Assembly: GCA_026929865.2 (NCBI GenBank)
Contig: JAMBYZ020000011.1
Location: 27,240-91,239, forward strand
Direction of reading: 5' to 3'
DNA from: Hyperoplus lanceolatus
Taxonomy: Eukaryota > Chordata > Actinopteri > Uranoscopiformes > Ammodytidae
DNA: 64,000 nucleotides
Numbering within the stretch: the first letter of the stretch is position 1; the number at the start of each line of letters is the position of its first letter. Made by a program: the position numbers and the translations under genes. The notes below the pieces were generated by a model. It saw only the letters and a program-made list of their open reading frames with translations. It made no database searches and was not told where the DNA came from. This document shows, in pieces, positions 6,690-58,500 of the stretch.

Positions 6690-7540
6690 CCTAAGAAAAA
6701 ATGTCCAAATTGGGCCCAAAGTGTCAATATTTTGTTTTGCCATCATTATTTTCTAGCACTACCTTAACCCTCTTGGGCATGTAGTTCACTAGAGCTTCAG
6801 AGGTTGCAACTGGAACCCTCTTCTACCCATTCATGACGACATCAAGGAGCTGGTGGATATTAGAGTCCTTGCGCTCCTCCATCTCCCGTTTTAGGATGCC
6901 CCAAAGATGCTCAATAGGGTTTAAGACTGGAGACATGCTTGGCCAGTCCATAACCTTTACCCTCAGCTTCTTTAACAAGCCAGTGGTCGTTCGGAGGGGT
7001 GTTTGGGGTCGTTATCATGTTGCAGTACTGCCCTGCGGCCCAGTTTATGAAGGGAGGGGATCATGCTCTGCTTCAGTATGTCACAGTACATGTTAGAATT
7101 CAATGAACTGTAGATCCCCAGTGCTGGCAGCACTCATGCAGCCCCAGACCATGACACTCCAACCACCATGCTTGACTCTAGGCAAGACACACTTGTCTTT
7201 GTACTCCTCACCTGGTTGCCGCTCCACACTCTTAACACCATCTGAACCAAATAAATGTATTTTGGTCTCATCAGACCACAGGACATGGTTGCAGTAATCC
7301 ATGTCCGTAGTCTGTTTGTCTTCAGCAAACTTTTTGTGGGGTTTCTTGTGCATCATCTTTAGAATAGGCTTCCTTCTGGGATGACAACCATGCAGACCAG
7401 TATGATGCAGAGTGCGGCGTATGGTCTGAGCACTGACAGGTTGACCCCCCACCCCTTCAAGCCCTTCAGCAATGCTGGCAGCACTCATACGTCTATTTTC
7501 CAAAGCCAACCTCTGTGTACGACGCTGACCATGTGCACTC
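6690..7540 (-). pseudogene. Tc1 transposase, N-terminally truncated and frameshifted
   Basis: The minus strand encodes the middle of a DD34E transposase: the end of the helix-turn-helix region (SAQTIRRTLHHTGLHG), the first catalytic Asp in WSDETKIHLFG, and GGWSVMVWGCMSA. The frame stops after LQFIEF near 7093. Downstream of this the homology continues (NMYCDIL, LQHDNDPKH with the second Asp, then a PIEHLWG-type Glu region) with a frameshift and a stop in the tail. The usual start and first helix-turn-helix are missing because the inverted arm begins near 7543. Confidence 0.85.
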
Positions 7541-7544
7541 AACC

Positions 7545-7894
7545 TTCGTAAACTGGGCCGCAGGGTGGTATTGCAACATGATAACGACCCCAAACACACC
7601 TCCAAGACGACCAGTGGCTTGCTAAAAAAGCTGAGGGTAAAGGTTATGGCCTGGCCAAGCATGTCTCCAGACCTAAACCCTATTGAGCATCTTTGGGGCA
7701 TCCTCAAATGGAAGGTGGAGGAACGCAAGGTCTTTAATATCCACCAGCTCTGTGATGCTGTCATAAATGGGTGGAAGAGGGTTCCAGTTGCAACCTGTGA
7801 AGCTCTAGTGAACTACATGCCCAAGAAGGTTAAGGCAGTGCTGGAAAATAATGGTGGCCACACAAAATATTTACACTTTGGGCCCAATTTGTAA
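7545..7894 (+). pseudogene. Inverted copy of Tc1 transposase C-terminus
   Basis: The plus strand encodes LQHDNDPKHTSK (second catalytic Asp), then SPDLNPIEHLWGILK (catalytic Glu), and ends KYLHFGPNL before a stop at 7892. It is better preserved than the minus-strand version at the other end. It has no promoter or N-terminus of its own and is the right arm of the foldback. Confidence 0.85.
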
Positions 7895-11426: not shown

Positions 11427-11432
11427 CGAGAC

Positions 11433-12478
11433 TATGGAAAGCGGAAGGTGCCACAATTCGGCCCGGTATTTGACGCGGTATAAACAACAATCCGCGCGGT
11501 TTAGTCGTTAATCCGCCCGGAAAGGCCCCTTAAACCGCCCGGAACTTCCGCGCGGATTTGTATTTTCCGCCCGGAACTTCCGCGCGGAAAAACCGGGCGG
11601 AATTTCCGCCCGGCATTTCCGCGCGGATTAGACGCTCTAAACCGGGCGGAAATTCCGTCCGGCTTCTTAATATGCAAATGAGCCCCTCCCTCTGTTTTGC
11701 TTGACCACTACATTCAAAGGCTTTGTAACCAATCAGTGAAGAAAAATGACAGACCAAAGTAATGCATTGACGAGATCTGCAGTGCCTGCCTGCCTGTTAC
11801 GCCGTAGCCTAGCTTGAGATAGGATACAAATGATTGTTCTACTTAAAAACGTAACTCGCATGATGCATATTTAACAGTTCTGGATATGATGTGTTTGCTT
11901 AGCTAGTGATAGTAATCAGCTGTGTAGATTCCACAACATATAAGTGTTAATTAATAGGCTGCCACTGTTAAAATAGGACTTATACTTGTAGTGAAGTAGG
12001 CTAACTAAGATAATTGTCACGAGCATAGGCAAACGTAGTCATTATGTACTGAAATGGGCCCTGTAAGACAGTGTTTTTCTGTTCTGATGCTTGTGGATCA
12101 TTCTTTCAGCCAGGCCTACATGAATGTCTTTTACATTTTCCTGCTATATGTTAAGGTTGAGCTCACTAATCTCCGTTGGCTAGTTTAATCTACAGCAATA
12201 CAAACTATATCCAGATAAAGTGTAAAATATGGCACTAAAGGCAGTTACAATCCATCACTAAGGATTTCATAGAGCTGATTCAGTGGATTAAACATGTATA
12301 TAATCTGTATGATCACATTGCCTGCCTTCTCTTATAAAATACCATTTTAATCATGTGTATAATGATCTGTCTGTCTCCGTTGTTGACTGAGGATTAAACA
12401 TTTGCCTTGGACTATTTTCTTTCCTTTTTAACTCACCTTCTTTTAAAATCTCCTTTATTGTTCACCACATGCACTAAG
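11433..12478 (+). repeat. Left terminal inverted repeat of the giant transposon
   Basis: The outer 250 bp is a GC-rich array of short near-palindromes of the form CCGCGCGG and CCGCCCGG, often within TTCCGCSCGGAA, between about 11,490 and 11,670. The rest is AT-rich. It pairs with 27,992-29,003 at very high identity. The right copy lacks two short blocks of the GC-rich array. Confidence 0.9.
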
Positions 12479-14869
12479 GCACTAGGCCTTGGTCGAAAAT
12501 ATGCAGAAATATGGACATATATGAGACCCTTTCTAAGGAAAAAAAAGAATTTCAAAAAAATGTTTTCAGCTATTATGCACTAAATTAAACGTACTTATGG
12601 CTATTATAATTACTTTCTACAAAATCTGCTAGGAAATAAAAACCAAAATTCTACACACTGCAGGTTTAAAGCGGCTACGAGTAACATTTAAATATCTTTT
12701 AAACAGCCGCATGTTTCCTCTGATAATCATAAATTACCTTTAACAGCAAACGAGACCATCAGTGCAAAGAAAGACGTTTTTAAATAGTTTTTATTACTGC
12801 TTTTGGTCTGGTCGCACACCCAGTCCGATTTTCGGTTCGCTCGTGCAGGCTCTATGGTCACATATCCGTATTGATCGCAGATTTCAGTGTGGCGCAGCAA
12901 CGTGAATTGAGAAGCCTATCCCTCCAGGTGAGGGAAGGGGAGCGGGAGCCTTGTTTGTCGTCATAATGACTGATAACGGGGCTGAACCATCAAAGAAAAA
13001 ATGCAATGAAGAAAAGCTAAAAGGGACAGTGATATAGGCTACGGGCGGGACCAGGGCGTTGCCAAGCAACGTGTATACAATTTCACGAGAGCGAAAATAG
13101 ACTGCAGTGTTTACTCCTAAATGAATGAGCGGTTTGGGTTGATGTATCCAATTTGGGATTGCCTTATTTATGGTTGTTGCATTTCTTTACATTTCCACGT
13201 TTATCAATGCACTAATGCAATAATGTCTTATTATTTCTGTTTGGTATCTGATGTGAAAAATAAATCACATCAATCAAATGACTGTTTAATTTAAAATAAT
13301 CGAAACGAGAAAATAATGATATTGATATTCTCAAAACTTGTGTCGTTCACATAGGCCACCTACACACTGTGAAAGTAACATACTTGAATAATGATAATAC
13401 TTAATACTGTAACCATGTCAAATTGCAATAGAATATTACATATGGGTAAGAGACAAAGTCCTTTGGGACCCAAAAGTCATGCAGATATTTGACTGTTGAT
13501 GTGTAGAATTAAGTATAAAAATGGCTCCTTGATAACAAAGCAAACTGGGAAGAATTATTGTTAGACTTCAATATACAGTGTCTTCATGAGGTCAGCCAAT
13601 ATTGTTCAGAGGAATGCTGTGATGCCTAAAACAAAATGTGAAGTTCAAAACACAAAACAAATGTTGCTCCAAAATACTAGCACACTGCCAAAAACTGAAA
13701 ATTACCTCGGTAGATGTCTCTTTGGTCTCAGTACGTTCTTCGCCGATCACAACCAGGTTAAACCGTCTCTATGTCCTTGTCTGAATCTCTCCTATCAGCG
13801 CAGTTCCTCCTTTCAGTTGGAGAGAATGAGAGAGAGAATGTCACCAAGAGAAACACTTTATTTGAAAATGTTATTGCCAACGGCTGTGCATGTAATTGTT
13901 GTGAATATAATAATAAAGAAATCTTGATTTTAGTGTGAAATTTAAAATAACAAAACGGTTTTGTTCTTTACTACTAGCCATGCCCCAATTGTGTTCTACA
14001 ATACTTACTGATCAACAGACTTCTCGCAACTGCATCTGTAAAATCCTTGTCAGTATATTCCAGGTGATTCTTTTGGTGTTCTGTCCTCCTAGCACCATGA
14101 GCAGAACTCTGACAAGACAGACGGGTTTATCAGATAAAAACAATTGACTACAAGTGTGTAATTATTTTGTTGGCTTACAATGTCAGGCCTGAAACTTAAA
14201 TTTAAATATGTGAAAACATTTTCACTGGGATCAGCCGCAGCACCCAAAAGCGCCTTCAAGTGAGATGTAGGTATAGCAGTGGATGTAGCTGTAAAAGTTA
14301 ACCATAATGTGACCTCTAGACTTATTAGACTACTTATATACGTATAATGGCAGTGTCAGGGAGTGATATGTGCCCGGTGTGAATAGTTGAAATGCGGAAA
14401 AAAACAACTGCATTGCAGATTATCGGCAGTCCATCACCACATCTTCACATCTCACTGCCTGGTGTTAAAGGCTCTTAATGATAGCTACCCTACAAACTTA
14501 AGCAACATTATGGTAACTACCACTCAGTGACACCTGCCAACAAGTATTTCAATGCAACTCAGAGTCGGTCAAACCACCTACAGAGCAGTGCACGGTTTCT
14601 TTCTTTCTCCGGAACATGTGGACATTTTCAGGATTTAAAGGACTTAAGACCATTTTAACACCTCTAAAAAGCCAACAGAAATCCACAAACAACATCAGTC
14701 AGCCATATTTTTGGTTTACCTTTAACATTGCTTGGCTGGAACACAATAATTTGACCTGGCTTGGTTGAAAGCCCACTCACCACGGCAAGGTGCAGGCCAT
14801 GAGTGGGAAAAACAAGAGTGTGTGGGCCACTCACGCGCATCCTTCCACAAGTGTGTTTGTGTGGGGCAC
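12479..14869. other. Interior of the giant transposon, AT-rich, no gene recognised
   Basis: Only short ORFs without domains occur here (for example 13,586-13,927). They show no family motif and are not called. Confidence 0.55.
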
Positions 14870-15537
14870 TTCCTCTGCATCACCTCCTTCTCCAGTGCAC
14901 CACCTTCCTCCGCTTCACCTCCTTCTCCTCTGCACCACCTTACTGCGCTTCACCTCCTTCTCCAGTGCACCACCTTCCTCCTCTTCACCTCCTTCTCCAG
15001 TGCACCACCTTCCTCCTCTTCACCTCCTTCTCCAGTGCACCACCTTCCTCCGCTTCACCTCCTTCTCCTCTGCACCACCTTACTGCGCTTCACCTCCTTC
15101 TCCAGTGCACCACCTTACTGCGCTTCACCTCCTTCTCCAGTGCACCACCTTCCTCCTCTTCACCTCCTTCTCCAGTGCACCACCTTACTGCGCTTCACCT
15201 CCTTCTCCAGTGCACCACCTTACTGCGCTTCACCTCCTTCTCCTCTGCACCACCTTACTGCGCTTCACCTCCTTCTCCTCTGCACCACCTTACTGCGCTT
15301 CACCTCCTTCTCCAGTGCACCACCTTACTGCGCTTCACCTTCTTCTCCAGTGCACCACCTTACTGCGCTTCACCTCCTTCTCCAGTGCACCACCTTACTG
15401 CGCTTCACCTCCTTCTCCAGTGCACCACCTTACTGCGCTTCACCTCCTTCTCCTCTGCACCACCTTACTGCGCTTCACCTCCTTCTCCTCTGCACCACCT
15501 TACTGCGCTTCACCTCCTTCTCCTCTGCACCACCTTC
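14870..15537. repeat. 35-bp minisatellite, about 19 copies
   Basis: The unit is cttcacctccttctccagtg followed by caccaccttactgcg. Variants differ at two spots (ccag or cctc; actgcg, cctcctc or cctccg). Because 35 is not a multiple of three and the unit has no stop in any plus-strand frame, all three forward frames stay open for 270-320 codons with the same cycling peptide. These ORFs are a by-product. The array lies just beyond the integrase stop codon, in the position of its 3' UTR. Confidence 0.95.
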
Positions 15538-15595
15538 CACCACTGCACCACATTCTGTGCTGCACCTCCTTCTCCACAGTACCACCGCTGTCTCC

Positions 15596-17885
15596 TCATG
15601 GTGTTGCCAGAAAATTCACAACGTCACGGATAAGATCCAGTCCAAGATCTCTTCTAGGACCAGCAAGAGGGTCAAATCTGCTGTTGAGCTGCTCCAAAAC
15701 AGCATCCCCAACTGCGTACTGATTTGAGGGTACGGTGACCCTCTCAGGCCAGTGCATCTCTCCTGCACCAGCACCACCCTCTCTTGGTGGGTCCGCAGCT
15801 GCTTCCCCTTCTGCCCCTCCTTCCTCTGCAGCCTCTCCTTCCTCTGCAACACCTGGTCCCCCACCAAATAGGGACAGCATTGCAGTAGAGGTCTGCCCCT
15901 GTCGTTCAAGGCAACCTCTAACGAAAATCTGCAGTGGTGTGGCATGCCTTTCCGTCCTCAGACCATGGTTGTTCCACTGGTCAATGAAGTAGCAGAGGTC
16001 ACGGTTGATCCGGGGAAGATACACGTAGTGCAGTGCCCACATGTGCATCTCATTGTCGATGTCCACGATACCTTCACTCTCTAGGAAATTGAAGAGGTCA
16101 TAGTAAACATTGGACATTCCTCGCCACAAGTCTCCCCAGAGTCGTTCAATCCTCTGGTTATGGGTGCTTCGCCCCCGGAGAGCACTGCCTCTGTTTGGCC
16201 CTCTGAATACATTCATCATGAGGCAGACAGAGTTGTTCTCCCCTCCATGGTCAGTCCTGACCCTCGAAGGCACGCCATACTTTGCCACAGCATCTATGAA
16301 GCTGTCCATAACCGTGCTGCTCCGGTTGTTGTCAGAGGCTCGGAGGAACACAACTAAGCGGCTGTATCCATCTATGGCCCCATGAATGACAATTCTCCAC
16401 CTGTAACAGAAGTATTGAAAATATTAAATTAACCACACCTTTAAAGCAAACACCAAAGTCTGGTATGCTAATGTCAATATCTACCTGATCAGCTTGTGGT
16501 TACCATCGAGGTGCCACAAGGAGTTTGGCCCAGCAACTCTGTATGCCCTTCTTTGCAGCGTTTGCGACATTGCCCTTGCCGCAGCTGCTGCAGGGTTCAC
16601 TCGAAGCATGCTTGCACGGACTCTGTCCCTTTGGACATAAATTTGCTGCGCACGCAACTGGGCCCTCACTGACTCAGGACCGATGCGGTCATTCCCAGCC
16701 ACTGTTTCCCTGATGAGGTCATCCAAGGCAGCATCTGAGCCGGTGGAAAATGTCCCTGTGCGCCTCAGGTTGAAGTGCCTATAACATTTGCACATAGAGG
16801 GAATGTTAGACCTATGGTATTTAAATGTACTTTCGCACCTTCAACAAAGTGACCCCTCCAGGATGATTACAACAATTCTGACAAGAGGGCACTGCCATTA
16901 TTGAAACATACCTTAAACGACGTCTCAGTGTACGAACAGATACACACAGAATCTGTGCCATCTGTTTCCCAGAGAAACCACAGGTTCTCAAAAAACACAG
17001 TTGCTCTCGGGATATTTGGAACTGTGGGGGACCACGACCTCCAGTCCAAATGAGCGGGGCATGGTAGCCTGAAAAACATAAAAGATTGATGATTTCACAC
17101 CAGGGTATCTACACATGTTTAAAGTTAAAATTTAAAAAAATACTTTATAGACCTTTTTAATACCTGTAAAAAGGAAAAATTAAGACCACTTCTAATACCA
17201 ATACTGCTGCAACAGAAATCGACAAACTACACTAAGTATATAGCCTATGCCGTTAAGAGTTTCATTAAGTTTGAATAACAAATATCCAATGCACTTTAGT
17301 TAAAAACTGCCAGCGTCTAATTACAGAAAAATAAAACAGCTCAGCAGTCTGAGTGAAGGCAATGTCCCCCCTGCATTTAACATCATAAATATTAGTGACC
17401 ACCGTTAAGGCAACCTGAACCCAGTCATTACAACCTTTCAACATATAATAGAGCCGTATCAAATGATTAACCGAGTAAAAAAAAAACAGTTTAATCAATA
17501 ATGAAAGTATTTCTTATATGCAGCATACAAAAATTTCTGGATGTAAAAAAATCTAGTCATTTTTGGCGAATACTGTTCCTGAAATTTCTGAGAAAGAAGT
17601 GACTGACTGACAGACAAACTGAAAGAGAAGAATTCTTTTGATTTCCTGTTAAGGTTTAAAAAAAATGCATTTGTTTGTTGTTAGTAGTCAGAAAACAAAC
17701 CATACACAGAGTAATTTAGTTAAATAATCCTATGAGCAGCCCCATGCAAGCATACCTTGTTGTCCCGGTGTGGTAGGCCCAGATCTCCGAACTTCATCCA
17801 TTAATTCTCGAAGATCTCTAATTATTAGATCAGCTGAGGAGCTGTCAAGCAGCCTTCCCCTTGACCACTCTAGGCTCCTCTCCAT
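15596..17885 (-). CDS. DDE integrase/transposase of the giant element, four exons
   Basis: Exons at 17,756-17,885, 16,912-17,068, 16,485-16,778 and 15,596-16,400 have GT-AG junctions with matching phases and join into one 461-residue frame from ATG to TGA. An upstream acceptor just before the ATG (cag|GTTGG) suggests another 5' exon. Residues about 64-96 form a helix-turn-helix (ISREQLCFL...SVRTLRRRL). The catalytic core has Asp187 in SLWHLDGNHKL, Asp244 in RTDHGGEN and Glu279 in THNQRIERLW, so 34 residues separate the second Asp from the Glu. The conserved tail follows (ALHYVYLPRIN, WNNHGLRTE). The last 100 residues are acidic and Gly/Ala/Glu-rich. It should cut and join the element ends. 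No disabling mutation is visible. The family matches the 'integrase core domain' proteins common in fish genomes, and the IS3EU label is tentative. Confidence 0.85.
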
Positions 17886-17899
17886 GGTTTCCAACCTGA

Positions 17900-18716
17900 C
17901 AGTTAAAAAGGTTTGGTGAAGTTAGGAAACATTGGTAAGTGTGAATCTGTGAAGATTTTCACGTTGTGTCGTATTTTAATTTAATTATATCCTGTTGAGA
18001 ATAATTATTTTATTATTACATACAGCAAAGCATTGAATTAATTTGAATGTTTTCCGGTTACATTTAACCCTTTGATACACAAGCTAAACACACACCCTTT
18101 AATGGATGACACAGGTCACAGGATGATAAAAATTAATTTTTTGCAAATAGATAGAAAATTAAAAACTCAGTCAGGTCACTTTTCATGTAATTTGTTGAAC
18201 AGATGTTTAATACAAGGTTGGTGGGTAGAATACAACTTTTTGTTTGGTCTGTTAGATTTTTCTCCTGCTATCCTCGATATTCCTATGACCCATGATGCTT
18301 TGCGCGAAAATGAGCGCAGGTTCCGGTGTAGACCGGAAACTCTGCTGTTGTCTCTGACTGAAGCTCCATGGACTGAAGCTGTCTTTCCTTCATTTTGCGA
18401 CCTGATTTATGTTCAAAGTATGGATGTGGGAGCACAGCAAACTAATGCTGATACGAGGCGATGGAGTACTACCTGTGTCTTCTTTATAGAAGGATGGGAG
18501 GACGAAGTAGTGGTCGCGGGTAACATACGCTAGCGTTTTTAGCTTTAGCTAAGTAGCCATTAGCCCAGCCAACAGTGCACGTCCCCCAGACTAGTGGAGT
18601 ATGTCGCTACTGAAACTTATACAGTTTATGATGGTGAGGCGATTACTCCTTTAAAAGGTCTGAGGCATGAACTGTACTATATATTGGAGAAATACTACGC
18701 TAACTGGTTATAATTA
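17900..18716. other. Interior of the giant transposon between integrase and LINE
   Basis: One 153-codon plus-strand ORF (18,072-18,533) has no recognisable domain. A 5' non-coding exon of the integrase could lie here on the minus strand, but I cannot place it. Confidence 0.45.
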
Positions 18717-21116
18717 CAGCACCACTGGCTTCCAGTTCATGTCAGATCTGACTTTAAGGTGCTGCTATTGACCTATAAGGCATTAAATGGGCTTGCACCT
18801 TCATATTTGTCTGACTTAGTTCCGCGATATGCCCCATCACGGGCACTACGGTCTACGACTGCAGAGCTCCTGTCTGTCCCCAGAGTTAAGAAAGCTGCCG
18901 GCAGCAGGGCTTTCTCGTATCGAGCTCCTTCGTTATGGAATACACTCCCGATAGAGATCAGACATTCTGAGTCGATCGAGGTGTTCAAGTCTAAACTTAA
19001 GACTTATCTCTTTGATTTATCCTTTGGTTAGCGCTCGTCCACCTCTCTGCTGGCGCGGGGTCGGTTGTGGGTCACCCTGTCTGGGCTCGGTTCTCTGGCC
19101 TCTGCTGGGGGGGAGTTTTGCTCTGGGGTAGGTGCCGGTCTGTGGCTGTTCCGGTGGGCTGCCCTGGCCGCTCGGGCTGGGGCAAATTGGCGTCTGACCG
19201 TGGGCGCTGCTGCTGGGGGGTGGGATCATGCCTTGCCTCCGGACGTGCGGTCGCGTCGGCCTCCTGGGGCTTGGCTGGGTGGTCATGTCGGCTTGTGGGT
19301 TGGGCCGGGGGCGGGGCGCTGGGGCGGCGGCGCTGCCTGCCGCGGTCGTTGGTGTGCCCTGGGCTGGGGGCGGCCGGGGGGGTGGTGGTGTCGGGCTGCG
19401 TGCTCAGGCGTCTGCAGTGGCGCCGTGCTATGGCCTGACTGGACCGCTGGGTGGGGTTGAAATGGGGCATCGGGTGCACATTGTGTAATTGTTGCACTGG
19501 TTGGTGGGCACTGCGATGTTTTTAATCGATTAGATACGGGTTGCTTTTGACCGCCTCGGGAGAACTGCGGATTGATTGTGCTGGGGCGGTTAAAAGAAAT
19601 CCATGCAATTTGCGTTTTAACTGTTTTTAACTGTTTTTAATTGTTTTTAAGCTGTTTTAATCATTTGTCCCTGCCTGGCGGTCCACTCTGTGGCGTCGCT
19701 GTTGGCGTCTGTGTTTCGCGGCCCGGCGTCGGTGCTCCTCCGGCCGGTCCTAGCTCTGGGTGTGCCGATGGCGGCGGCGGATGCGTCGCGCCCTTTGTGC
19801 TTGGCGCCTCTGGCCTTGTCTCATGGGCTGGGCATGGCCGGTCTGGCCGGCCCGAGTGGGCTGTACGGGCCGCCCCTCCGGGGGTTTTGGCTGTGGTTGC
19901 TCCTCGTGGCTGCGGTGCATTTGGCTATCTCCCTATTCTATACTATCTATTCTCTATCTACGGCCCCGGTCCTCCACTGGACTAGTGCCGCACTGGGGCG
20001 TGCTCTCTGGGGGCGGGGTGCTGGGGGGCAGGCTCTGGGTCTGGGAGGCTGGCGCCGATTGTGTGTTGGTGGGGAACGGTAGAGTGTAAATCAATGTTAT
20101 TTAATGTTAATTGTGTTCATATTGTTGAACATTGTTGTAGCGTTATTATCATCAGCCTGATGAGCTGCCTTCGGTCTCGGTTTGTCAGAGCCTGAGTACC
20201 GGTTATCCTCCCACTGAGAAATTGTCCTGCCGACGCAAAATAAAATAACTGATACCATCTCTCTAACATTTGTGCTCTTCTGTCTATCTTCCATGATTGC
20301 TGAGCGATGCCCTGGGGGTTCTCTCCCCCTGTCTACCTGCTCGACTGACTCCGAGCTCTGTGTGGAATCAGCTGTCCTAGGAACGGATGCTCCCCGCCTG
20401 CTGTTGCCTCACATCAGCACTGTTTCACCGTCCATCAGGATAGTACTATTTCTACTCGCTTGTTTGTTCAATCTTTAAATTCATTTTTGCTTTGCTCATT
20501 GGTTGCTTGTCTGTCCTCTTCCAGTTTTCCCTGGTCATGGTGAGATGGTGTGGATCTGGTCTCCCCTCTGGCAACATCTGAGAATGGATCGCCTACGCAT
20601 GCTGCAGTGGTTAAAGATACCACCTGGAGACGTGGGGTGAAATCCCGGTGCTGGAAACCTTAGTTTTCCCTGGTGGAGACGAGACGTGATGGTGCGGATC
20701 CTCTGGCATCATCTGAATTCGTCCTGCATCCGTACTATTTGCACTTTACTTTAGTATTACCATCTAAACATCTGGACATTGATCAAAATCCTTCGTGATT
20801 TTTCTCTACTTATGACATCTATTGCAGCATGTCCGTCCTGGGAGAGGGATCCCTTACTCTGTCAACTCTCCCTGAGATTTCTTCTATTTATTTTTTTTTA
20901 ATCCCGGTAAAGGGTTTTTTTTACTGGGAGTTTTTTCTCAGCCGAGCTAAGGGTGTAAGGGCAGGGTGTCATATTGTTTCACATATTGTTTCATATTATA
21001 TCATGCTGTGTCATATTGTACCATACTGTATCATATTGTATGGACTGTAAAGCCCATTGAGACGAATGCCATTTGTGATTTTGGGCTATACAAATAAAAC
21101 TGATTTGATTTGATTA
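18717..21116 (+). mobile_element. 5'-truncated L2-type LINE with long GC-rich 3' UTR
   Basis: It opens within the ORF2 C-terminus (HHWLPVHVRSDFKVLLLTYKALNGL ... SLWNTLPIEIRHS), with a stop near 19,031, and finishes with a typical L2 end: gggctatacaaataaaactg followed by a gatttgatttgatt repeat tail. Between them lies about 2 kb of UTR. Parts of it are very GC-rich (19.03-19.45 and 19.68-20.08 kb), and its overlapping ORFs have no domains. Endonuclease and RT domains are missing, so it is a dead insertion inside the giant transposon. Confidence 0.85.
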
Positions 21117-21564
21117 GAACACTAGCTCTTATGCAGTCATTCAGAGTACTTTTGCAGCGCGTAATGAACTGTAATCTGGCCATGGTTCAAGAGTTTCACC
21201 AGTCAGTCCAAAGTCAATGGCTTCAACGGCTTCAACTCATGGAACTATTGGAAGAGCTGCTACTTTATATTTGTTGTTCTTCTTCTTTTGTTTGGTTTTT
21301 TGGCGGTTGGCAACAACCTCTTGATGCATTACTGCCACTAACTGAGGGCTATTCCATAAAGCAAGGCAAGGCAAGGCAAGGCAAGTTTATTTATATAGCA
21401 CAATTCAGACACAAGGCCACTCAAAGTGCTTTACAGGGGCAAGATTAGAATACATAAAACACATTATAAAACATTTAAAAGCGAATAAAAGAAGCAAATA
21501 AAAATAAAATAAAAACTCGATTTAAAAACATAATAAAAGAAGCAAATAAAATGAAAATTGCAAG

Positions 21565-24543
21565 TTAAAAAGGAAACAAAAAAGTCTTCAGACTCGATTT
21601 AAAAGAACTGAGAGTTGCAGCAGACCTCAAGTTCTCTGGGAGTTTGTTCCAGATTGTTGGTGCATAAAAACTAAAAGCTGCTTCTCCTCGTTTAGTCCTA
21701 ACTCTAGGGACTGTAAGTAGACCTGTCCCAGACGACCTAAGGGCTCTGGACGGTTCATAACTTATCAGCATATCAGTAATGTATTTTGGCCCTAAACCAT
21801 TTAGTGCTTTATAAACCAACATCAGAATTTTGAAATCAATTCTTTGAGTGACTGGAAGCCAATGTAAAGACCTCAGAACTGGGGTAATGTGATCCACCTT
21901 TTTGGTCCTAGTGAGGACTCGAGCAGCAGCGTTCTGAATTAGCTGAAGCTGTCTGATTGATTTTTTTGGAAGGCCAGCAAGGACACTGTTACAGTAGTCA
22001 AGTCTACTAAAGATAAATGCATGGACAAGTTTTTCTAAATCTTGCTGAGACATAAGCCCTTTAATTCTTGATATGTTTTTTAGGTGGTAGTAGGCTGATT
22101 TATTGATTGATTTTATGTGTTTCTTGAAATTCAAGTCAGAGTCTACAACAACACCAAGATTTCTGGCTTGGGGTGTAGTTTCTAACATAATGGATGTAAG
22201 CTGTGCGCTGACTTTTAATTGTTCATCTTTGGCACCAAAGACAATTACTTCAGTTTTATCGTTGTTTAATTGAAGGACATTTTGGCACATCCAATCATTG
22301 ATTTGTTCAATGCACTTACTCAGTGCCTGTATTGGACTGTAGTCTCCTGGTGATATGGTTATGTAAATTTGTGTGTCGTCTGCATAATTATGGTAGCATA
22401 ATTTGTTCTTATTCATAATCTGAGCTAGTGGGAGCATGTAGATGTTAAATAGAAGAGGGCCAAGAATGGAACCTTGGGGGACCCCGCATGTAATATTTGT
22501 CCGCTCAGATGTGAAATTGCCTATTGACACATAGTAGTCTCTATCCTTTAAGTAGGATTCAAACCAGCTTAGTACAGTTCCCGAAAGTCCAACCCAGTTG
22601 GCTAGTCGATCTAGTAATATGCTGTGGTCAACTGTATCAAAAGCGGCACTGAGATCCAGTAAAACTAAGACAGAACTTTTGCCACTGTCTGTGTTTAAAT
22701 GGATGTCATTGAGGACCTTAACCAGAGCAGTCTCAGTACTGTGGTGTTGTCGAAATCCTGACTGGAAGACATCAAAGCAGTTATTCATTGCTAAGTAGTT
22801 ATTTAGCTGTTGATAAACAGCTTTTTCAATGATTTTACTTAAAAATGGTAGGTTAGATATGGGCCTATAATTTTTCATGAGTGATGTATCTAGATTGTTC
22901 TTTTTTAAGAGTGGCTTGATGACTGCTGTTTTCAGGGCCTGTGGGAATACACCTGTCTGAAGGGACATATTGACAATTTGTAGAACATCTGAGGCCATAC
23001 AGCTAAAAACAGTTTTAAAGAAGCCTGTGGGCAGAATGTCAAGGCAACAGGATGAGGAGTTCAGGTGTTGTATAATGTCCTCCAGGTTTTTGTGGTTTGT
23101 AAGATACAATTCTGTCATTGCATTTGAATTGATTTTAAGAGGGAACACATATGTTGAACTTGGTATTGATGCAGTGACAGCTTGTCTAATTTTGTGAATT
23201 TTCTCAGTAAAGAAGGAGGCAAATTCATTGCAGGCCCTCGTGGAAAGATGCTCAGACGCTACTGGCACAGGAGGGTTTGTTAATCTGTCGACAGTAGCAA
23301 ACAGGGCACGTGCATTGTTGTTGTTTTTGGTGATGATGTCAGAAAAGAAAGAATGCCTTGCATTTCTCAGTTCTGAGTTAAACGTGCACAGTTTCTCTTT
23401 GAAGATGTCATAATGAACCTGGAGATTTGTTTTTCGCCACCTGCGTTCTGCTTTACGGCACTCTCTTCTTTCTATTCTGACCTGCGGGGCATTTCTCCAA
23501 GGAGATCTTTTCTTACCAGAGACAACCTTCATCTTAGTGGGCGCAATAGCATCTATAACACTTGTAAGTTTGCCGTTAAAGTTGTCTAAGAGCTCCTTAA
23601 CTGAGTTACAGGGGAGGGGTGGTACCGAAGAAAATGCTTGAATGAATGTTTCACTGGTATTTTCTGTAATATACCGCTTTTTGATTACTTTTGACTGATC
23701 AATTGTGTGAACAGACATTGTACTCTCAAAAAATAAACAGGAATGGTCCGTGAGGGGACCCATATCTGCCACTGTTATGTCTGAAAAGTTCATTCCTCTG
23801 GAAATGATAAGGTCCAGCGTGTGCCCTTTGTTATGAGTTGGTTTGTCAACATGCTGATTTAGTCCAAAGTTGTCAAGGACACAGCACAGTTCTTTCGCAC
23901 ATCTGTCCTCTGGTTTGTCAGTATGAATATTGAAATCTCCGACGATTAATACACAGTCAAACTCAGTACAGATTACAGACAGCAGTTCAGTAAATTCATC
24001 AAAAAAGCTTGCATTGTATTGTGGTGGCCGGTAGATATTGATGAAAATAGCTCTAGAGGCTGAATTTAACTGTAGAGCCACATACTCAAATGAATCAAAA
24101 TTTCCATAAGACATCTTTTTGCATTGTAGAGATTCTTTAAACAGAATAGAAACCCCCCCTCCTTTTTTATGCACTCTGGATTCACTCACAAAATTGTAAT
24201 TTGCGGGGGCGGACTCTATAAGAACAGCTGAGCTGTTATCTTGGTCTAACCAAGTTTCAGTTAAAAACATAAAATTAAGATTGTGCCTAGTAATAAGATC
24301 ATTAATTAAAAATGTTTTACCTGCCAAGGATCTGATGTTTAATAAACCTAAATTTAGTGTGTTCGAAGCATTGTCAGCCCGATTTATTTCAGCACACTGT
24401 GGCTGAAGAGGAATGCTTATCAGATTTGATACATTTACAGGATTTAAGAGTTTCCTGTTACTTGAGATACACTTTGAGAAACAGGGCCCCAGCTTATCCT
24501 GTGAGTCGTAGGCGTTAACTAAGTAGCCGCGGCCCGGCACATA
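21565..24543 (-). CDS. LINE ORF2: AP endonuclease plus reverse transcriptase
   Basis: About 990 codons are open. Residues about 60-270 form an apurinic-type endonuclease (LLNIRSL, FLTETWL, IVGDFNIH, HTLDLII, LTDHSCL). Residues about 540-800 form the reverse transcriptase (KNYRPISNLPFLSK, LDLSAAFDTVDH with the first catalytic Asp, GVPQGSILGPLLF, YADDTQIY with the catalytic pair). A long C-terminal domain with LHWLPVTQRIDFKIL follows. All key catalytic residues are present, so the copy may be or have recently been active. No AUG is available near the start: the frame opens directly after the ORF1 UGA, and the first in-frame AUG falls inside the endonuclease domain (FMFLTE). Confidence 0.92.
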   Translation of the reverse strand, partial: YVPGRGYLVNAYDSQDKLGPCFSKCISSNRKLLNPVNVSNLISIPLQPQCAEINRADNASNTLNLGLLNIRSLAGKTFLINDLITRHNLNFMFLTETWLDQDNSSAVLIESAPANYNFVSESRVHKKGGGVSILFKESLQCKKMSYGNFDSFEYVALQLNSASRAIFINIYRPPQYNASFFDEFTELLSVICTEFDCVLIVGDFNIHTDKPEDRCAKELCCVLDNFGLNQHVDKPTHNKGHTLDLIISRGMNFSDITVADMGPLTDHSCLFFESTMSVHTIDQSKVIKKRYITENTSETFIQAFSSVPPLPCNSVKELLDNFNGKLTSVIDAIAPTKMKVVSGKKRSPWRNAPQVRIERRECRKAERRWRKTNLQVHYDIFKEKLCTFNSELRNARHSFFSDIITKNNNNARALFATVDRLTNPPVPVASEHLSTRACNEFASFFTEKIHKIRQAVTASIPSSTYVFPLKINSNAMTELYLTNHKNLEDIIQHLNSSSCCLDILPTGFFKTVFSCMASDVLQIVNMSLQTGVFPQALKTAVIKPLLKKNNLDTSLMKNYRPISNLPFLSKIIEKAVYQQLNNYLAMNNCFDVFQSGFRQHHSTETALVKVLNDIHLNTDSGKSSVLVLLDLSAAFDTVDHSILLDRLANWVGLSGTVLSWFESYLKDRDYYVSIGNFTSERTNITCGVPQGSILGPLLFNIYMLPLAQIMNKNKLCYHNYADDTQIYITISPGDYSPIQALSKCIEQINDWMCQNVLQLNNDKTEVIVFGAKDEQLKVSAQLTSIMLETTPQARNLGVVVDSDLNFKKHIKSINKSAYYHLKNISRIKGLMSQQDLEKLVHAFIFSRLDYCNSVLAGLPKKSIRQLQLIQNAAARVLTRTKKVDHITPVLRSLHWLPVTQRIDFKILMLVYKALNGLGPKYITDMLISYEPSRALRSSGTGLLTVPRVRTKRGEAAFSFYAPTIWNKLPENLRSAATLSSFKSSLKTFLFPF

Positions 24544-26085
24544 TCAACAAGTGCTGACATCATCAGTCTCCCTAGCCTGATGATGAAGACGTAAGAGCCG
24601 GGCACTGTGGCTTAGATTGGCGAGTTGAGGGGGACGTTGACTGCTGGGGGTACATATGATTTCTTTAAATCCCAGATCAGGAGAGGATGGAGAAAGGGTG
24701 GGGGGGGTGGTTGAAGGAGAGAAACGAGGAGAGAGAGGTCGGCTTGGTGTTGACCTGCGTGGTCCAGGGGAGACGGGGATGGGTGGAGCCCCCTCCTCTC
24801 TGCCCTGATATCTCTCCTGGTCTGAGCTGTCATCTGGGGCCGGCAGTTGTCCTTCGGCGCTGCTGCTACGCTGTGTTATCTTCTTCTCCTGGGCCTTGTC
24901 CTTGGCACGAACAGATTGGTGACGTAGGACGTACATCACGTTGGATGTGAATAGTTTGACTCCAGCCTTATTTAGACAAAGTCCATCTGTCTTAAAAAGC
25001 TGCTTGCGGTTCCAGAAAATGTTAAAATTGTCAATAAAATGCACTGAGTGGTCAGGGCACACAGTTGAAAGCCATGTGTTCAGTGCTAACAGTCTAGTGA
25101 ATCGCTCAGGTCCTCTTCTGATTGGTGGCAGAGGACCACTGATAAACACCTCAGCATTCAGTGAGCTGACCGTGTTCAGGAGATTCTTAAAGTCCTGTTT
25201 CAACATTTCAGACTCTTGTTTTACAACATCATTTGATCCGATGTGCAGAATGATGTTCTTTACAGTAGTGTGTGCAGCTGCAATTTCCAGGATTCTCTCT
25301 TCTAGGTCCGACACCATATCATTTGGAAAGCAGAGTACTTTGGTATCAACACTAAACATGCTTTTCATATCTCTAACAGAAAAGTCTCCAACTATCAGGG
25401 TTTCAGGCCTGGTCGTTAGCTTGGTTAGCCCGGTTGTTAGCTCTCTCTGTGGCTCTTGGCTTTCGGGCCTTACCTTGTTGTGTGAAGGCGCTATGCTATC
25501 TTGGTCATCAGAGGGAAATCCAGGGACTTGCATCAGTGGAGTAAACCGGTTCGACACTTGCACACTTGTTTGCTGTGGAAGTTTGTTGTTGTTACCTCTC
25601 TCCCTTGCAGTAATCCATTGCTGCGGCCTCCGAGGCGCGGGGGTTGAGGAGGCACCGTGCCTGAGTGATAACGCAGGCCAGCCATCCAGATCAGTCATCT
25701 CATGGTGCTCGGCCCTGCCGGTTATCCGTCCTCCCTTTTCCAATCTCTTTGGCCTTCCACCAAGACGATTCCAGGGAGGGTTATCACTAACCTGGACACG
25801 GCCCTTTTGTTTCTTCATAGCCTTGTCGGTGCTAGTTAGCTGTGGGTTAGCTCGATCTTGTCCACTGTTTAAAGTCACTGATAGAGTGGTGTCGTTCCCA
25901 CATAGTCCATTCACATCAATGTTCATTTCTATTCGATTAATTTTTGTTTCCAGTGCTGTAATCTTCTGTAGGAGTGTTTGATAGTCCTTGTTAGATAAGG
26001 GAGGCATCTTGCTGCTAATTAGCTTTAGCTGAGCGCCTCGCTTCCAGTCACCACAGGCTTGTCCTGTTGTTAGGCCCCCCCTCAC
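24544..26085 (-). CDS. LINE ORF1: coiled coil plus SGNH/esterase-like domain
   Basis: The predicted protein has 513 residues, starting at ATG 26,085. Residues about 33-60 form a coiled coil (TLLQKITALETKINRIEM), followed by a basic region. An SGNH-hydrolase-like domain spans about 229-400 with TLIVGDFSVRDM (block I), ILHIGSND (block III) and DGLCLNKAG (block V). The C-terminus is Pro/Ser-rich. CR1/L2-clade ORF1 proteins often carry such an esterase domain. Here the block-I serine context is GDFS rather than GDS, and the block-V histidine is not in DxxH position, so catalysis looks doubtful. It shares its frame with ORF2, separated by one UGA. Confidence 0.85.
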   Translation of the reverse strand: MRGGLTTGQACGDWKRGAQLKLISSKMPPLSNKDYQTLLQKITALETKINRIEMNIDVNGLCGNDTTLSVTLNSGQDRANPQLTSTDKAMKKQKGRVQVSDNPPWNRLGGRPKRLEKGGRITGRAEHHEMTDLDGWPALSLRHGASSTPAPRRPQQWITARERGNNNKLPQQTSVQVSNRFTPLMQVPGFPSDDQDSIAPSHNKVRPESQEPQRELTTGLTKLTTRPETLIVGDFSVRDMKSMFSVDTKVLCFPNDMVSDLEERILEIAAAHTTVKNIILHIGSNDVVKQESEMLKQDFKNLLNTVSSLNAEVFISGPLPPIRRGPERFTRLLALNTWLSTVCPDHSVHFIDNFNIFWNRKQLFKTDGLCLNKAGVKLFTSNVMYVLRHQSVRAKDKAQEKKITQRSSSAEGQLPAPDDSSDQERYQGREEGAPPIPVSPGPRRSTPSRPLSPRFSPSTTPPTLSPSSPDLGFKEIICTPSSQRPPQLANLSHSARLLRLHHQARETDDVSTC

Positions 26086-26403
26086 GTTCTATTGAGAAGG
26101 TCGTAAAAGTGTCCAAAAATGCCTGTAGTATCTATAAAAGTAAAAATAAATTACAGTCCCTTTGATTTGTATGTATCCAGGACCTGCTGCTAAATATATT
26201 ATCGAGGAAAAATAAGAATGTAAGCAAAAAGTGCAAGAGGAGGAGAGAGCAAGCAGAAAAGCGTCTGCACAGTAGGAAAGCAGGAAGCGAGCTTTGTGTT
26301 GCAAAAAGAAGGAACAGAGCTTAATAATTATACCTGTAAGCTGTAACATATACTGTATACTAGGTCCATTTCTAGCATACTGCCTACAACCTTTTCTATG
26401 CAT

Positions 26404-26836
26404 GGTTGGGTACAGGCTGATGCTGTTGATGGTGATATGGGCCTAAATGCTGTTAGTAAATTAGTACAATTCCGTAGCCTACATTGACATGTGATTCAGA
26501 AATTGACCTGAGATTGGAATTTGTTGAACTAGAGTGTGACAAAAAGGTCTGAACATGCTGTTTCAGAGGTATATAAATAACAGTGTGATATGCTTTGTGT
26601 TAGCATGGTCGACATGCTGTTGTATGATTGTTGTAGAAATAATACAGAACAACACTTTAAAGGACTGATTTTATTAACAGGTCAGGTCTTACAGACAGGG
26701 CGAGATGAACCACTGTGAGGATTCCTTTCCATCGATGTGTGGAGCCTCCCAGTGTGATCCTATCAGGACGGAAAAAACGATTCATGGAATCACTCCGCCA
26801 GGTGTCCAGGAGTGCTACACACATGTTGTAGGGGAA
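26404..26836. other. Giant-transposon interior flanking the hAT MITE
   Basis: A plus-strand open stretch (26,705 onward) is cut by the hAT MITE. No domain is recognised in either direction. Confidence 0.45.
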
Positions 26837-27200
26837 CAGTGTTGGGTAAGTTACTTCAAAAGCGTAATGCATTATTTATTAACAATTATTGTCATTTCAG
26901 AGTAGTTAGTTACATTACAATATTACTGTCTTTGAATTGTAGGGCATTACACTACTTTTACATTACTTTTGCATTACTTTCACCAAAATAACAGGAAATA
27001 TGGATTTGGTGTTCTTAATAGATCTACTTGTGTTCAATGCAGCTCATTACACAGCAGGAGGTGACATGGTATGGCATAATGACTGAGCTAGGCTTAAGGT
27101 TAACAAAAGTATATAATACAATGTTGTTGTAATGCCTTACATTACCACGTTACAGCAAAACATAATGCATTACAATTGTAACGCGTTACTCCCAACACTG
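26837..27200. mobile_element. hAT MITE (364 bp)
   Basis: It begins CAGTGTTGGG and ends CCCAACACTG (perfect 10-bp inverted termini). It is flanked by an 8-bp duplication taggggaa (26,829-26,836 and 27,201-27,208). The inner ends read gtaagttac and gtaacgcgttac. No ORF. Confidence 0.93.
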
Positions 27201-27208
27201 TAGGGGAA

Positions 27209-27991
27209 CCACTGAACGTGATCACAAAACAGACAGACTTAAATCCCTATTCACAACAACAAACCCCACAACTCAAGACAGATTTATTATATAGGGCTCA
27301 TTTTTATTCATTTATTATAGCATAGCCTTTATACCACCAGATTGTTAGTAAGAGTAATCATTACATAACCAATGAGACAGAATACTAAATGGTGCATTTA
27401 TCAATTACAGAAGCTTTTTACACAGCAGAGGTGCTCTACAGATGTTTAGTTTGAATGATTAACAAGCTTTTTCTTTTTCTAATATCTATGTATGTTTCCG
27501 ATCTCTCATCCTATCAGAAGGCGTTCTGTTGCTGTGGTGATAAGAAGTAGAGCCCTCCATCTCCAACTCCCTGGAAACTTCCTTCTCCTGGGTCAACTTC
27601 ATCCTGTCTGCAGCTTCCTTCTAATCGGACCCTGCTCCTCACATGCACAGCCTACTTTACCCATGACGCATATGTTTTTTTCACTGTTATACCTGAATAA
27701 AGTTTCTCTGATGTGTTACACTGATGTTGCTATACTGTGTGTGCTAGGTGTGGAAATACTTTGTTATATGGTCATTACGTTTACCATTTACAGGAAAAAG
27801 TTGGATATAGTTGGATCTAATTGAGCCTAAATCAATACTAATGTGTCTCATGATAAATGAACATTGGTTGTAGGGAGGGGGGGGGGGGGATGAGATATGG
27901 TTAAGTTAAGGTTTGATCCTGTAATGATTGAATATCTATTTTTCCTCTCAGACCATTAGAATATCAGTTACCTGTGAAAAGAGTAATTTGT
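27209..27991. other. Giant-transposon interior, right side
   Basis: A 110-codon plus-strand ORF (27,492-27,824) shows no domain. A 13-nt G run lies at about 27,876-27,889, and an aataaa occurs near 27,697. Confidence 0.45.
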
Positions 27992-29003
27992 CTTAGTGCA
28001 TGTGGTGAACAATAAAGGAGATTTTAAAAGAAGGTGAGTTAAAAAGGAAAGAAAATAGTCCAAGGCAAATGTTTAATCCTCAGTCAACAACGGAGACAGA
28101 CAGATCATTATACACATGATTAAAATGGTATTTTATAAGAGAAGGCAGGCAATGTGATCATACAGATTATATACATGTTTAATCCACTGAATCAGCTCTA
28201 TGAAATCCTTAGTGATGGATTGTAACTGCCTTTAGTGCCATATTTTACACTTTATCTGGATATAGTTTGTATTGCTGTAGATTAAACTAGCCAACGGAGA
28301 TTAGTGAGCTCAACCTTAACATATAGCAGGAAAATGTAAAAGACATTCATGTAGGCCTGGCTGAAAGAATGATCCACAAGCATCAGAACAGAAAAACACT
28401 GTCTTACAGGGCCCATTTCAGTACATAATGACTACGTTTGCCTATGCTCGTGACAATTATCTTAGTTAGCCTACTTCACTACAAGTATAAGTCCTATTTT
28501 AACAGTGGCAGCCTATTAATTAACACTTATATGTTGTGGAATCTACACAGCTGATTACTATCACTAGCTAAGCAAACACATCATATCCAGAACTGTTAAA
28601 TATGCATCATGCGAGTTACGTTTTTAAGTAGAACAATCATTTGTATCCTATCTCAAGCTAGGCTACGGCGTAACAGGCAGGCAGGCACTGCAGATCTCGT
28701 CAATGCATTACTTTGGTCTGTCATTTTTCTTCACTGATTGGTTACAAAGCCTTCGAATGTAGTGGTCAAGCAAAACAGAGGGAGGGGCTCATTTGCATAT
28801 TAAGAAGCCGGACGGAATTTCCGCCCGGTTTAGAGCGTCTAATCCGCGCGGAAATGCCGGGCGGAATTTTCCGCGCGGAAGTTCCGGGCGGAAAATACAA
28901 ATCCGCGCGGAAGTTCCGGGCGGTTTAACGACTAAACCGCGCGGATTGTTGTTTATACCGCGTCAAATACCGGGCCGAATTGTGGCACCTTCCGCTTTCC
29001 ATA
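27992..29003 (-). repeat. Right terminal inverted repeat of the giant transposon
   Basis: Reverse complement of 11,433-12,478 with a few short deletions inside the CCGCGCGG array and scattered substitutions. It ends CCATA at 29,003, directly followed by the cgagac duplication. Confidence 0.9.
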
Positions 29004-29009
29004 CGAGAC

Positions 29010-55574: not shown

Positions 55575-58500
55575 CAAAGCTATTCAGAACTGCGGGCGCT
55601 GCCACCGTGGCTGGTGCTCCTTCCAGAGGTAAGACTTCCGGCTGTTGGAGGAAATAAGACGGGACAAGTTTTTTTTTGATGTCTGTGTTTGGCCTAATTG
55701 TTCACGAACACTTACCTGGAGCAGTGATTGATCCTCATTATCATAAGCACTACTAGGTATCATTACCAGGGTAACACATACTGCTGTGAGATATCAATCC
55801 CACTGGGTTCTGTCACATCAAATGAGTTATTGTTTGGAGATTTTTTATTTGCTGTATTTCTGGCAGTAGGGAACTAAAACTACAAGCCATTCTGACAAAT
55901 GACAAATCAGAATTAAGTTAGATTAGTCATTAATATTAAAAGCATTAGCCAGTGATTTAAAATTTTAGTTGAATTAACCTTTTCGGTAGCAATATGTTAC
56001 TTTACAGCATGATTTGTTGTCTAAGTGCATATCCTTATTTAGAATAGAGCATTTTCAAAGCAACATGTGTTCTCTGGAAATGCCGATGTAGAATTTTTAG
56101 GCTGATGTTGCAATGTAAATCTCACACCTGTTGTTGTTGATGTTGTGAACAGTTGTGGGTGGAAACAAAGCAAAGCAAAGCAAAGTGGCTGAGATGGAGA
56201 GAACCTTTCAGAGGCAGAGGAGCCAGATCAGGTACAAGGACCATTCCATTTCTAAAAACGAATTCAATTACTTTTTTTACTGTCTGCTTGAACACTATTA
56301 ACTGTCCTGGTTTTCTATTTTTATTTTTCAGTGACTATGAGGAGCAGCTGCAGGCTATGGCAGGAGTCCGGGAGGAGTTGGAGGGGGTGTTGAGTGAAAG
56401 GAACACTCTTAACAAGGAACTCTCCAACCTGGAGAGAAAATACAAAGTGATGGAGACAGTGCGAGACAGCCAAGAGACCGAGCTGCAAACCCTCAAGGTA
56501 CAAAGTCTGCTGCTTTATAGCTAATGCTGCTTATTTTGGCTTTGCATTAGTATTATAATAAGTAAGTAATATGCCATTTTTCAGACCTGACCTGCCTGAA
56601 GTGTCTTAACCCAAATTGAACTTGTGCAATATCGCTACCTATAGATTTATACAGGACAATTATTTATTTTAGGGCACAGCACGGCATTTATAAACCAAGA
56701 AAGGACTTGAACATTTAAAAACTAAGAATTTAAACAACATTTAAAAGACAAAGATTTTAGTTGAGAGTGTGTGTTTTGTCATTCCCCTTTTGGGCCACCC
56801 TGTCCCGCGTGCAGACGAGCCTCAAAGAGACACAAGAGGAGGTGCGCTCTCTCCGTGGCACAGTGTCCCAGCAAGAGGACAGCCTCCATGCCGGAGAGAT
56901 GGAGCGCAGGCAGCTTCATAATACGATCCAGGAGCTCAAGGCAAGTTACAATGAGGGCTCAACTCAGCCCGGGACAGCACCCTCAAAGGTCTTTCAGCTG
57001 CTCCATCGGCTGGGCCACCTGCTTTGACTTGCCTCCAGTTCTTCTCCAGTTAAAACTCTTCAGAGGAAAAAAATGTTGTAAAATTACTCCTTTTAATTTC
57101 TACGGTTGGTTTTGTCAAATTTGTCTTGACAACCAAAACGTTCTGTTGATTTTACAACAACCAAAGGAACATTGTTTATATTCTCTGACTGATATCACTT
57201 CTTTGCCTATCACCCTTTTCGTGCAGGGAAATATCCGGGTCTTTTGCAGAGTACGTCCTCTGTCGGATGGAGGCCAATCCAAACACATCCAGCTCCCGTC
57301 CTGTGAGAACAACAAAACTATAACTCTGGCCAAAACTGAGAAGGTGAGAATCAGTGATGCCATTTCATCAGAGGCACTTTTTGTTGTTGTGAAGAAAACT
57401 GTTTTCTTCTGTAGGTAATACTACGATTTATGTCTAGAAAAAATGGATGTTCAAGTCACCATAACTAACATGTCTCTTCATGTCAAAGTGATTAAAAAGT
57501 GCCCCGTAATAACAAAAGCACCTCAAAGAAGAAGTGACTGAAAGAAATAACGTTTAGCTTTGTGTGGTGTAACTGAAAAAGTAAATTCTGTCATCTCTAC
57601 TTTTCAGTCTCACACCGGCAAAACTGTGGAAACACAGAAAAAATACACCTTTTAATTTTGACCGGGTGTTCGGCCCACAGGCTTCACAGCAGGAGGTAAA
57701 CAACATCCACACATTGTACATAAAATAAGCTCCAACTGTTTTAAAAAAAAAACTGTTTTTTATTCTTGTGTTTTGTTTTATCAGAGCAGGAAATTCATTG
57801 TGATTGTCACTTTGTTTTCAGGTCTTTGAGGAGATCTCTCTGCTGGTGCAGTCCGCATTGGACGGCTACAACGTCTGCTGCTTTGCTTACGGCCAGACAG
57901 GGAGTGGAAAGACCTTCACTATGGAGGGAGATGAGTTTGATGAAGCCAGAGGCGTCATCCCAAGAGGCGTGCAGCAAATCTTCAAAGCAGCAGAGAAACT
58001 GAGATCACAAGGCTGGGAGGTTAGTGTGTAATGTCCTTTTATACAGTCAATGGTTATGTCATGATGGGGAGGAGGAAGTAGAGTTCAAAATGAATTCAAC
58101 TGATTTTTATTATTTTTTTTTAAGTGCACACGGAACAACACTATTTGTTCACCTAAACTACAATAATAAATGCTCAATACTTTTACAGTGATTATTCAGA
58201 AACATATGGATGATTACTGAAGTCCCAAAGTACATTCTGACACATATTTATAGGACAACACAATGTCGCAATTCAGTGTGAGACAGATTTACAAAAACAA
58301 GCTCATTTAGAGCAGGCTGTAGCACTGAGATTTTGTTTACACCGGTGTGATTTTTCTCAGAGCAATGCAAAAATCAATGTTAAAACTTAGAGATAACTTG
58401 GTTTAGGCTGCTTAGAAGAATCACAGTGAGACACAATGAAGAGAATATTAAGGATTAAACCAAGTAGTTAAACACGTAAAGCCTGACTTTGTTTGTCATA

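Follow-up and report, generated by a model that had tools for sequence, protein, structure and literature searches.

A 17.6-kb transposon with kilobase inverted arms and a spliced integrase gene in Hyperoplus lanceolatus, very probably a member of the IS3EU superfamily

IS3EU transposons are rarely studied in their own right. According to two descriptions (PMC10045372, PMC12730594; further literature includes PMC9945428 and PMC12763893), complete IS3EU families have TA..TA termini, which in fungal families read TAYGG..CCRTA, and usually 6-bp target site duplications (TSDs). The transposase lacks an HHCC motif and carries its first catalytic D 100–300 residues from the N-terminus, and the terminal inverted repeats (TIRs) of the fungal families exceed 30 bp. 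Styx, an IS3EU element of a fungal wheat pathogen, is 7.9 kb long, its movement was seen in a pedigree, and its authors judged that movement likely non-replicative (PMC10853768). Here we describe an element in the genome of the ammodytid Hyperoplus lanceolatus (GCA_026929865.2), found in a stretch of 64,000 nucleotides, hereafter the window, which represents 64 of the 91 kb of contig JAMBYZ020000011.1 (C31:27240-91239). The element spans 17,571 bp between its outer arm ends (window 11433–29003) and can be assigned with high confidence to the IS3EU superfamily of class II DNA transposons. It sits in a repeated host segment and keeps its ends, its duplication and a spliced integrase gene. The assembly searched comprised 806.7 Mb in 527 contigs; the labels C1, C2, C6, C7, C9, C10, C14, C14b, C20, C21 and the like denote copies by contig of this same genome, the window copy being C31.

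Compared with the published descriptions of IS3EU/GingerRoot, the locus has the same TATGG..CCATA ends, with TATGG at both ends of the window copy and at ends of other copies, the same 6-bp duplications, and a DDE integrase without HHCC whose first catalytic residue, D187, falls within the 100–300 range. It differs from the fungal families in its TIRs, which are about 1 kb here and probably 2.5–2.7 kb in its relatives. With Styx, the family shares a DDD/E transposase of IS3EU type, 6-bp duplications and extra coding sequences, but Styx measures 7.9 kb and was seen to move. The element would be a new member of a known superfamily, with nothing new in principle; the comparison is with published descriptions rather than through a protein tree. 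A first-pass annotation, made from the sequence letters, had likewise pointed to IS3EU, and ends, duplications and integrase all fit that reading.

That annotation had also proposed near-identical inverted arms that start with TATGG and are flanked outside by CGAGAC (Table 1), and the alignment of one arm with the other bore this out: of 1012 positions a single one is mismatched, and there are indels of 22 and 12 bp. Both indels sit inside a block of CCGSSCGG repeats. This palindrome occurs 10 times in the outer 217 bp of the left arm and 8 times in the right arm, so that 18 of the 19 sites of the whole window fall in the two arms; the outer 260 bp contain 10 sites, whereas 2000 single-base shuffles averaged 0.04 and never exceeded 1.

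Table 1. Features of the element in window coordinates, and related sites elsewhere in the genome
Feature	Position	Strand	Basis or remark
6-bp TSD, left copy CGAGAC	11427..11432	.	sequence; single copy at empty sites
Left TIR as kept in window copy, 1046 bp	11433..12478	+	
Segment next to left TIR, 2.07 kb	12479..14550	.	common with C21 copy; to 13426 with C14:377321 half-copy
Tandem array of a 35-bp repeat (18.8 units), past the integrase stop	14880..15536	.	related array after the gene in C1
Integrase exon 4, with D244 and E279	15596..16400	-	stop TGA 15598-15596
Integrase exon 3, with D187	16485..16778	-	
Integrase exon 2	16912..17068	-	most of weak helix-turn-helix-like stretch
Integrase exon 1	17756..17885	-	proposed start codon
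LINE 3'-fragment with GC-rich tail	18724..21126	+	approximate limits; LINE nature by sequence reading, no profile
Inserted LINE retrotransposon, two long open frames	21363..26284	-	absent at that point in C1 and C14b
LINE frame, endonuclease and reverse transcriptase	21565-24543	-	
LINE frame, GDSL/SGNH-type	24544-26088	-	
Inner part of family right arm	26286..27991	-	no left partner in window copy; inverted partners in C1, partly in C14b
Right TIR paired with left arm, 1012 bp	27992..29003	-	
6-bp TSD, right copy CGAGAC	29004..29009	.	sequence; single copy at empty sites
C6 miniature, 360 bp	C6:35599280-35599639		duplication AAGGGA
C7 miniature, 277 bp	C7:16311188-16311464		duplication CTTGTC
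C10 copy, 5.7 kb	C10:2365455-2371156		duplication CCAAAT
Empty sites	C31:26722; C14:365463; C6:3191; C1:43761399; C21:19461217		joined-flank match

A 29-base terminal pattern, allowing up to 3 mismatches, was found at no fewer than 16 termini in the genome, and at none when the pattern was reversed; 16 is a lower bound, because the list misses two known ends that carry small insertions, the right end of C10 and the left end of C20. Both outermost ends were found in five copies, the window copy included (C31, C6, C7, C10 and C20), four of which are bordered by perfect 6-bp duplications, all different (CGAGAC, AAGGGA, CTTGTC and CCAAAT). The search for further copies with their own duplications, which the first reading had called for, was thus positive. 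This count leaves out single-ended matches not followed to a second end as well as three copies: C1, which lacks the outermost 27 bp at one end, the truncated C2, and C14b, for which no far end was detected. End-sequence matches cover 256 and 105 bp of the C6 miniature and 158–181 and 63 bp of the C7 miniature. The family is a low-copy one that includes 277- and 360-bp miniatures.

The right flank of the window element is part of a repeated host segment, and copies of that segment lacking the element were detected. At C1:43761400-43762050, left flank passes through a single CGAGAC into right flank with the element absent, as a base-by-base reading of C1:43761399-43761455 showed. The query here included 600 bp of left flank, of which 19 bp matched. 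A joined-flank query of 73 nt, with its joint at query position 22/23, spanned the joint at five paralogous places, each time over query positions 4–60 and with 88–96% identity, while a sixth match was the window's own right flank. At the four places other than C1, the query reached just three more left-hand bases beyond the match. We read these five uninterrupted paralogues, with one CGAGAC each, as empty sites. Because three further copies carry their own 6-bp duplications and five empty sites exist, the inverted arms and the duplication exceed chance.

The integrase gene lies on the minus strand and consists of four exons encoding 461 aa, separated by three GT-AG introns of 687, 133 and 84 bp. 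The Pfam family rva_4 matched residues 175–367 with an E-value of 1.5e-92, and rve matched with 6e-07 (30.1 bits, under its cut-off of 32.6). The catalytic triad is D187, D244 and E279, the spacing from D244 to E279 being 34 residues, and a pattern check found no H-x3-7-H or HHCC pattern upstream of D187. Splice sites, triad and the rva_4 match confirm the four-exon DDE integrase of the first-pass annotation, and the profile-database run that it had recommended returned an integrase core family. Helix-turn-helix matches at residues about 70–99 were weak and under the Pfam cut-offs, and a PDB sequence search gave weak integrase matches (best E 0.12). The frame is open when spliced and apparently intact; therefore, the window copy could be autonomous.

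When the exon-4 frame was compared with the genome, at least 45 matches were obtained among 64 candidates scored. Those at 98–100% were on C9, C21, C31 and C1, and C14b matched at 97% over 96 residues. In C14b, residues 15–282 were matched exon by exon with no stop in the matching stretches, after which the match ends; two apparent stop differences both lie outside the integrase-matching stretches. The C31 and C1 genes differ by 9 synonymous changes (327.2 sites) and 8 nonsynonymous changes (1055.8 sites), a ratio of 0.28, which suggests constraint on the integrase. The C21 and C9 genes show no difference from each other across 1262 exon and 900 intron positions; what separates them from the window copy is the first six residues of exon 2. 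The C9 locus (C9:22603239-22607063) is an integrase body with introns, identical to the C21 copy over all 2162 compared bases; no exon 1 match was found there, nor any family arms within the 17.9 kb read. Among 13 other integrase relatives (L036-L043 and L055-L059, 38–50% identical) checked for inverted ends within 3.4–3.6 kb, nine had none and four (L036, L055, L057 and L059) had short inverted stretches of 15–62 bp, too small to be informative. Three of them, L037, L038 and L039, form another integrase family, 45% identical to that of the window and 99.8–99.9% alike over 3564 bases, and may be either another rva_4-type element that spread recently or the product of segmental duplication.

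Two relatives point to longer arms than those of the window copy. The C1 copy (C1:4913194-4939506) has both ends of the window's right-hand type, and its inverted similarity comprises six pieces, about 2.1 kb in total and 89.9–96.5% alike, which reach a point matching window 26499. The C14b copy (1384868 to beyond 1402000) has three inner inverted pieces (160, 272 and 171 bp) reaching window 26285–26292. When six copies were aligned with the window, the integrase-side sequence and the sequence on the side of ORF2, a Gag-like frame of the relatives, were seen to part at about window 26286. On account of these inverted pieces and this parting point, the family arm is probably about 2.5–2.7 kb long in window coordinates, of which the window copy probably keeps the full length on the right alone and the outer 1046 bp on the left. 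The segment that follows the left arm was not found in the C1 or C14b copies. The window copy probably arose by rearrangement from a larger member of the family and was later struck by LINEs. The first-pass annotation had described 1-kb TIRs and taken the element for an unusually large and well-preserved one; arms, ends and gene are indeed preserved, but the copy is probably rearranged and its relatives suggest longer arms.

A genome search with ORF2 returned at least 29 rows among 43 candidates scored. Close matches (71–100%) lie at eight places, with one further row being a second piece at C12, and the other 20 rows are 28–34% identical. Seven of the eight places are between, or within 19 kb of, family arm matches (C10, C2, C20, C14, C17, C1 and C12), and the eighth, at C15:29.77 Mb, is not near any. 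A sequence search did not find ORF2 in the window copy. Many of the 20 distant rows lie in long open frames. One of them, C14:12435868, was checked by profile and is a BEL/Pao element (DUF1759, Peptidase_A17, DUF5641 and Integrase_H2C2 above cut-offs, RVT_1 below). ORF2 and the N-terminal Gag region of this element share 29% identity across 116 aa, but the 1877-aa BEL/Pao frame used as a query gave no further match (E ≤0.01) in C10, C20, C14b, C1, C2, C21 or the window. ORF2 is stop-free in seven of the eight close matches (frames of 150–199 aa), and that on C12 has four stops. Pairwise dN/dS values range from 0.09 to 1.62 (10 pairs, 6–13 changes each). ORF2 as a functional second gene was set aside, given that no in-frame start precedes it in the five copies read and that Gag-like letters continue beyond it in other frames in C10. 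It is probably a captured Gag relic. Some fungal IS3EU elements, which have the same ends and duplications, also bear passenger genes (TET/JBP and alpha-kinase; PMC12730594); in the present family the sole passenger candidate is this Gag-like piece, in copies other than that of the window. At the level of search listings, the literature yielded no IS3EU element with a Gag piece.

In both C1 and C14b, an arm, the integrase, ORF2 and an inverted arm follow one another in the same order and orientation, with ORF2 on the integrase strand and nearer the far arm. This arrangement would place the Gag-like piece and the integrase in one larger element. A rival account, to which we give perhaps one chance in a few, is that C1 and C14b are neighbouring or nested partial copies, that integrase and Gag-like piece never travelled together, and that the arms never exceeded about 1 kb. 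In its favor, C1 and C14b lack collinearity from integrase to ORF2, no far end was detected for C14b, both ends and ORF2 but no integrase match occur in C10 and in C20, and the window copy has the integrase with no ORF2. The shared order and orientation, and inverted arm pieces that reach window 26499 in C1 and window 26285–26292 in C14b, argue against it and for a single larger element. A more elaborate version of the larger element, that an IS3EU lineage with arms of about 2.5–2.7 kb took up a BEL/Pao N-terminal Gag region and spread it, that the piece still functions in full-length members (for example, in assembly of the transposition complex), and that copies which lost Gag, the window copy among them, persist with just the integrase, seems improbable.

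The near-identity of the window arms could reflect arm-to-arm gene conversion instead of a very young insertion. The C14:377321 half-copy has its left flank and insertion point in common with the window copy; the left arms of the two differ at 7 of 1043 positions and the flanks at 5 of 1493, compared with 1 of 1012 between the two window arms. These counts are small, and the arms of C20 (12.75% different) and C1 (2.0%) are not homogenised. Conversion is hinted at by numbers too small to claim it, and we regard it as somewhat unlikely.

For the superfamily itself, there is a slight chance that the element belongs to another integrase-type superfamily (Ginger1/2, Polinton/Maverick or IS481EU) sharing such ends and duplication length. 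All of these encode DDE integrase-like enzymes, and the rve match is of this general kind. However, according to the sources (PMC10045372/PMC12730594), TSDs are 4 bp in Ginger1, 4 or 5 bp in Ginger2 and about 4, 15 or 25 bp in IS481EU, unlike the 6 bp found here, and termini of the TA..TA or TAYGG..CCRTA type are those of IS3EU. Polinton has 6-bp duplications and no HHCC finger, like the window element (same sources). A Pfam scan that covered all unspliced open frames of 120 aa or more within the element, 14 in number, detected the integrase, LINE proteins and matches over the 35-bp array, and no polymerase B or capsid family. Polinton/Maverick elements carry polymerase B and capsid/packaging genes. 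That the whole is an assembly or segmental-duplication artefact, with host inverted repeats enclosing an integrase gene by chance, would suit a window that is most of a repeat-rich 91-kb contig and a C14 half-copy with the same left flank, but is practically dismissed by the empty sites and by the distinct duplications around three further copies, of which two are miniatures.

Some observations weigh against reading the window element as an inserted IS3EU transposon. The left-hand match at the empty sites is just 19 bp. One of the five both-ended copies, C20, has no matching duplication; it is a composite, with 102 bp of a further end abutting one of its own, and its arms are the most divergent pair given above. 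Finally, the C31 and C21 integrase genes gave a ratio of 0.93 (2 synonymous and 6 nonsynonymous changes). Exons 1, 3 and 4 and residues 7–51 of exon 2 are identical in protein between these two, so the changes lie at the exon 2 start or in intron-split codons. As a separate observation, the C20 copy (C20:28999486-29014138), beside the 102 bp of its own end type, lies near the end of a chromosome-size contig and has the same LINE-like open frame on both sides, in opposite orientations.

For an IS3EU transposon, a transposition scheme can be drawn from the observed ends, duplication, empty sites, triad, splice signals and miniature insertions. The N-terminal region of the integrase would most likely bind the palindrome-rich ends, with the CCGSSCGG palindromes as candidate binding sites. 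The integrase would then pair the bound ends, cut at the TATGG termini and join the cut ends to target phosphates 6 bp apart, after which host gap repair would yield the 6-bp duplication. Cut-and-paste movement and present-day activity may likewise be supposed. Since the integrase frame is open when spliced, the ends are clean, and both empty sites and miniatures exist, this animal IS3EU transposase should be amenable to a simple excision/integration assay; the C7 miniature, 277 bp in all, suggests that little end sequence may suffice, and the palindrome arrays offer candidate binding sites.

Subtracting both LINE stretches from the 17,571 bp leaves about 10.2 kb, in agreement with the earlier estimate that about 10 kb is original, except that this remainder includes the 12479–14550 segment unmatched in C1 and C14b. 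These two copies hold about 0.55–0.75 kb of other sequence at the position of the LINE 3'-fragment. In frames over the 35-bp array, DUF6111 (once above cut-off) and a poxvirus family (below cut-off) matched with E ≤0.01, but no single stretch passed alone, and they were rejected as low-complexity matches over the tandem array. Elsewhere in the window, remnants of a Tc1/mariner-type transposase occupy 7093–7894 (HTH_Tnp_Tc3_2 in 7093–7812, Pfam). Direct and inverted repeats of about 0.1–3.1 kb, 77–100% alike, form a complex array over 32848–55597, in which short open frames related to one another (NKTKVIRG...) run in either orientation. An open frame at 56765–57418 presumably resembles the start of a kinesin motor domain.

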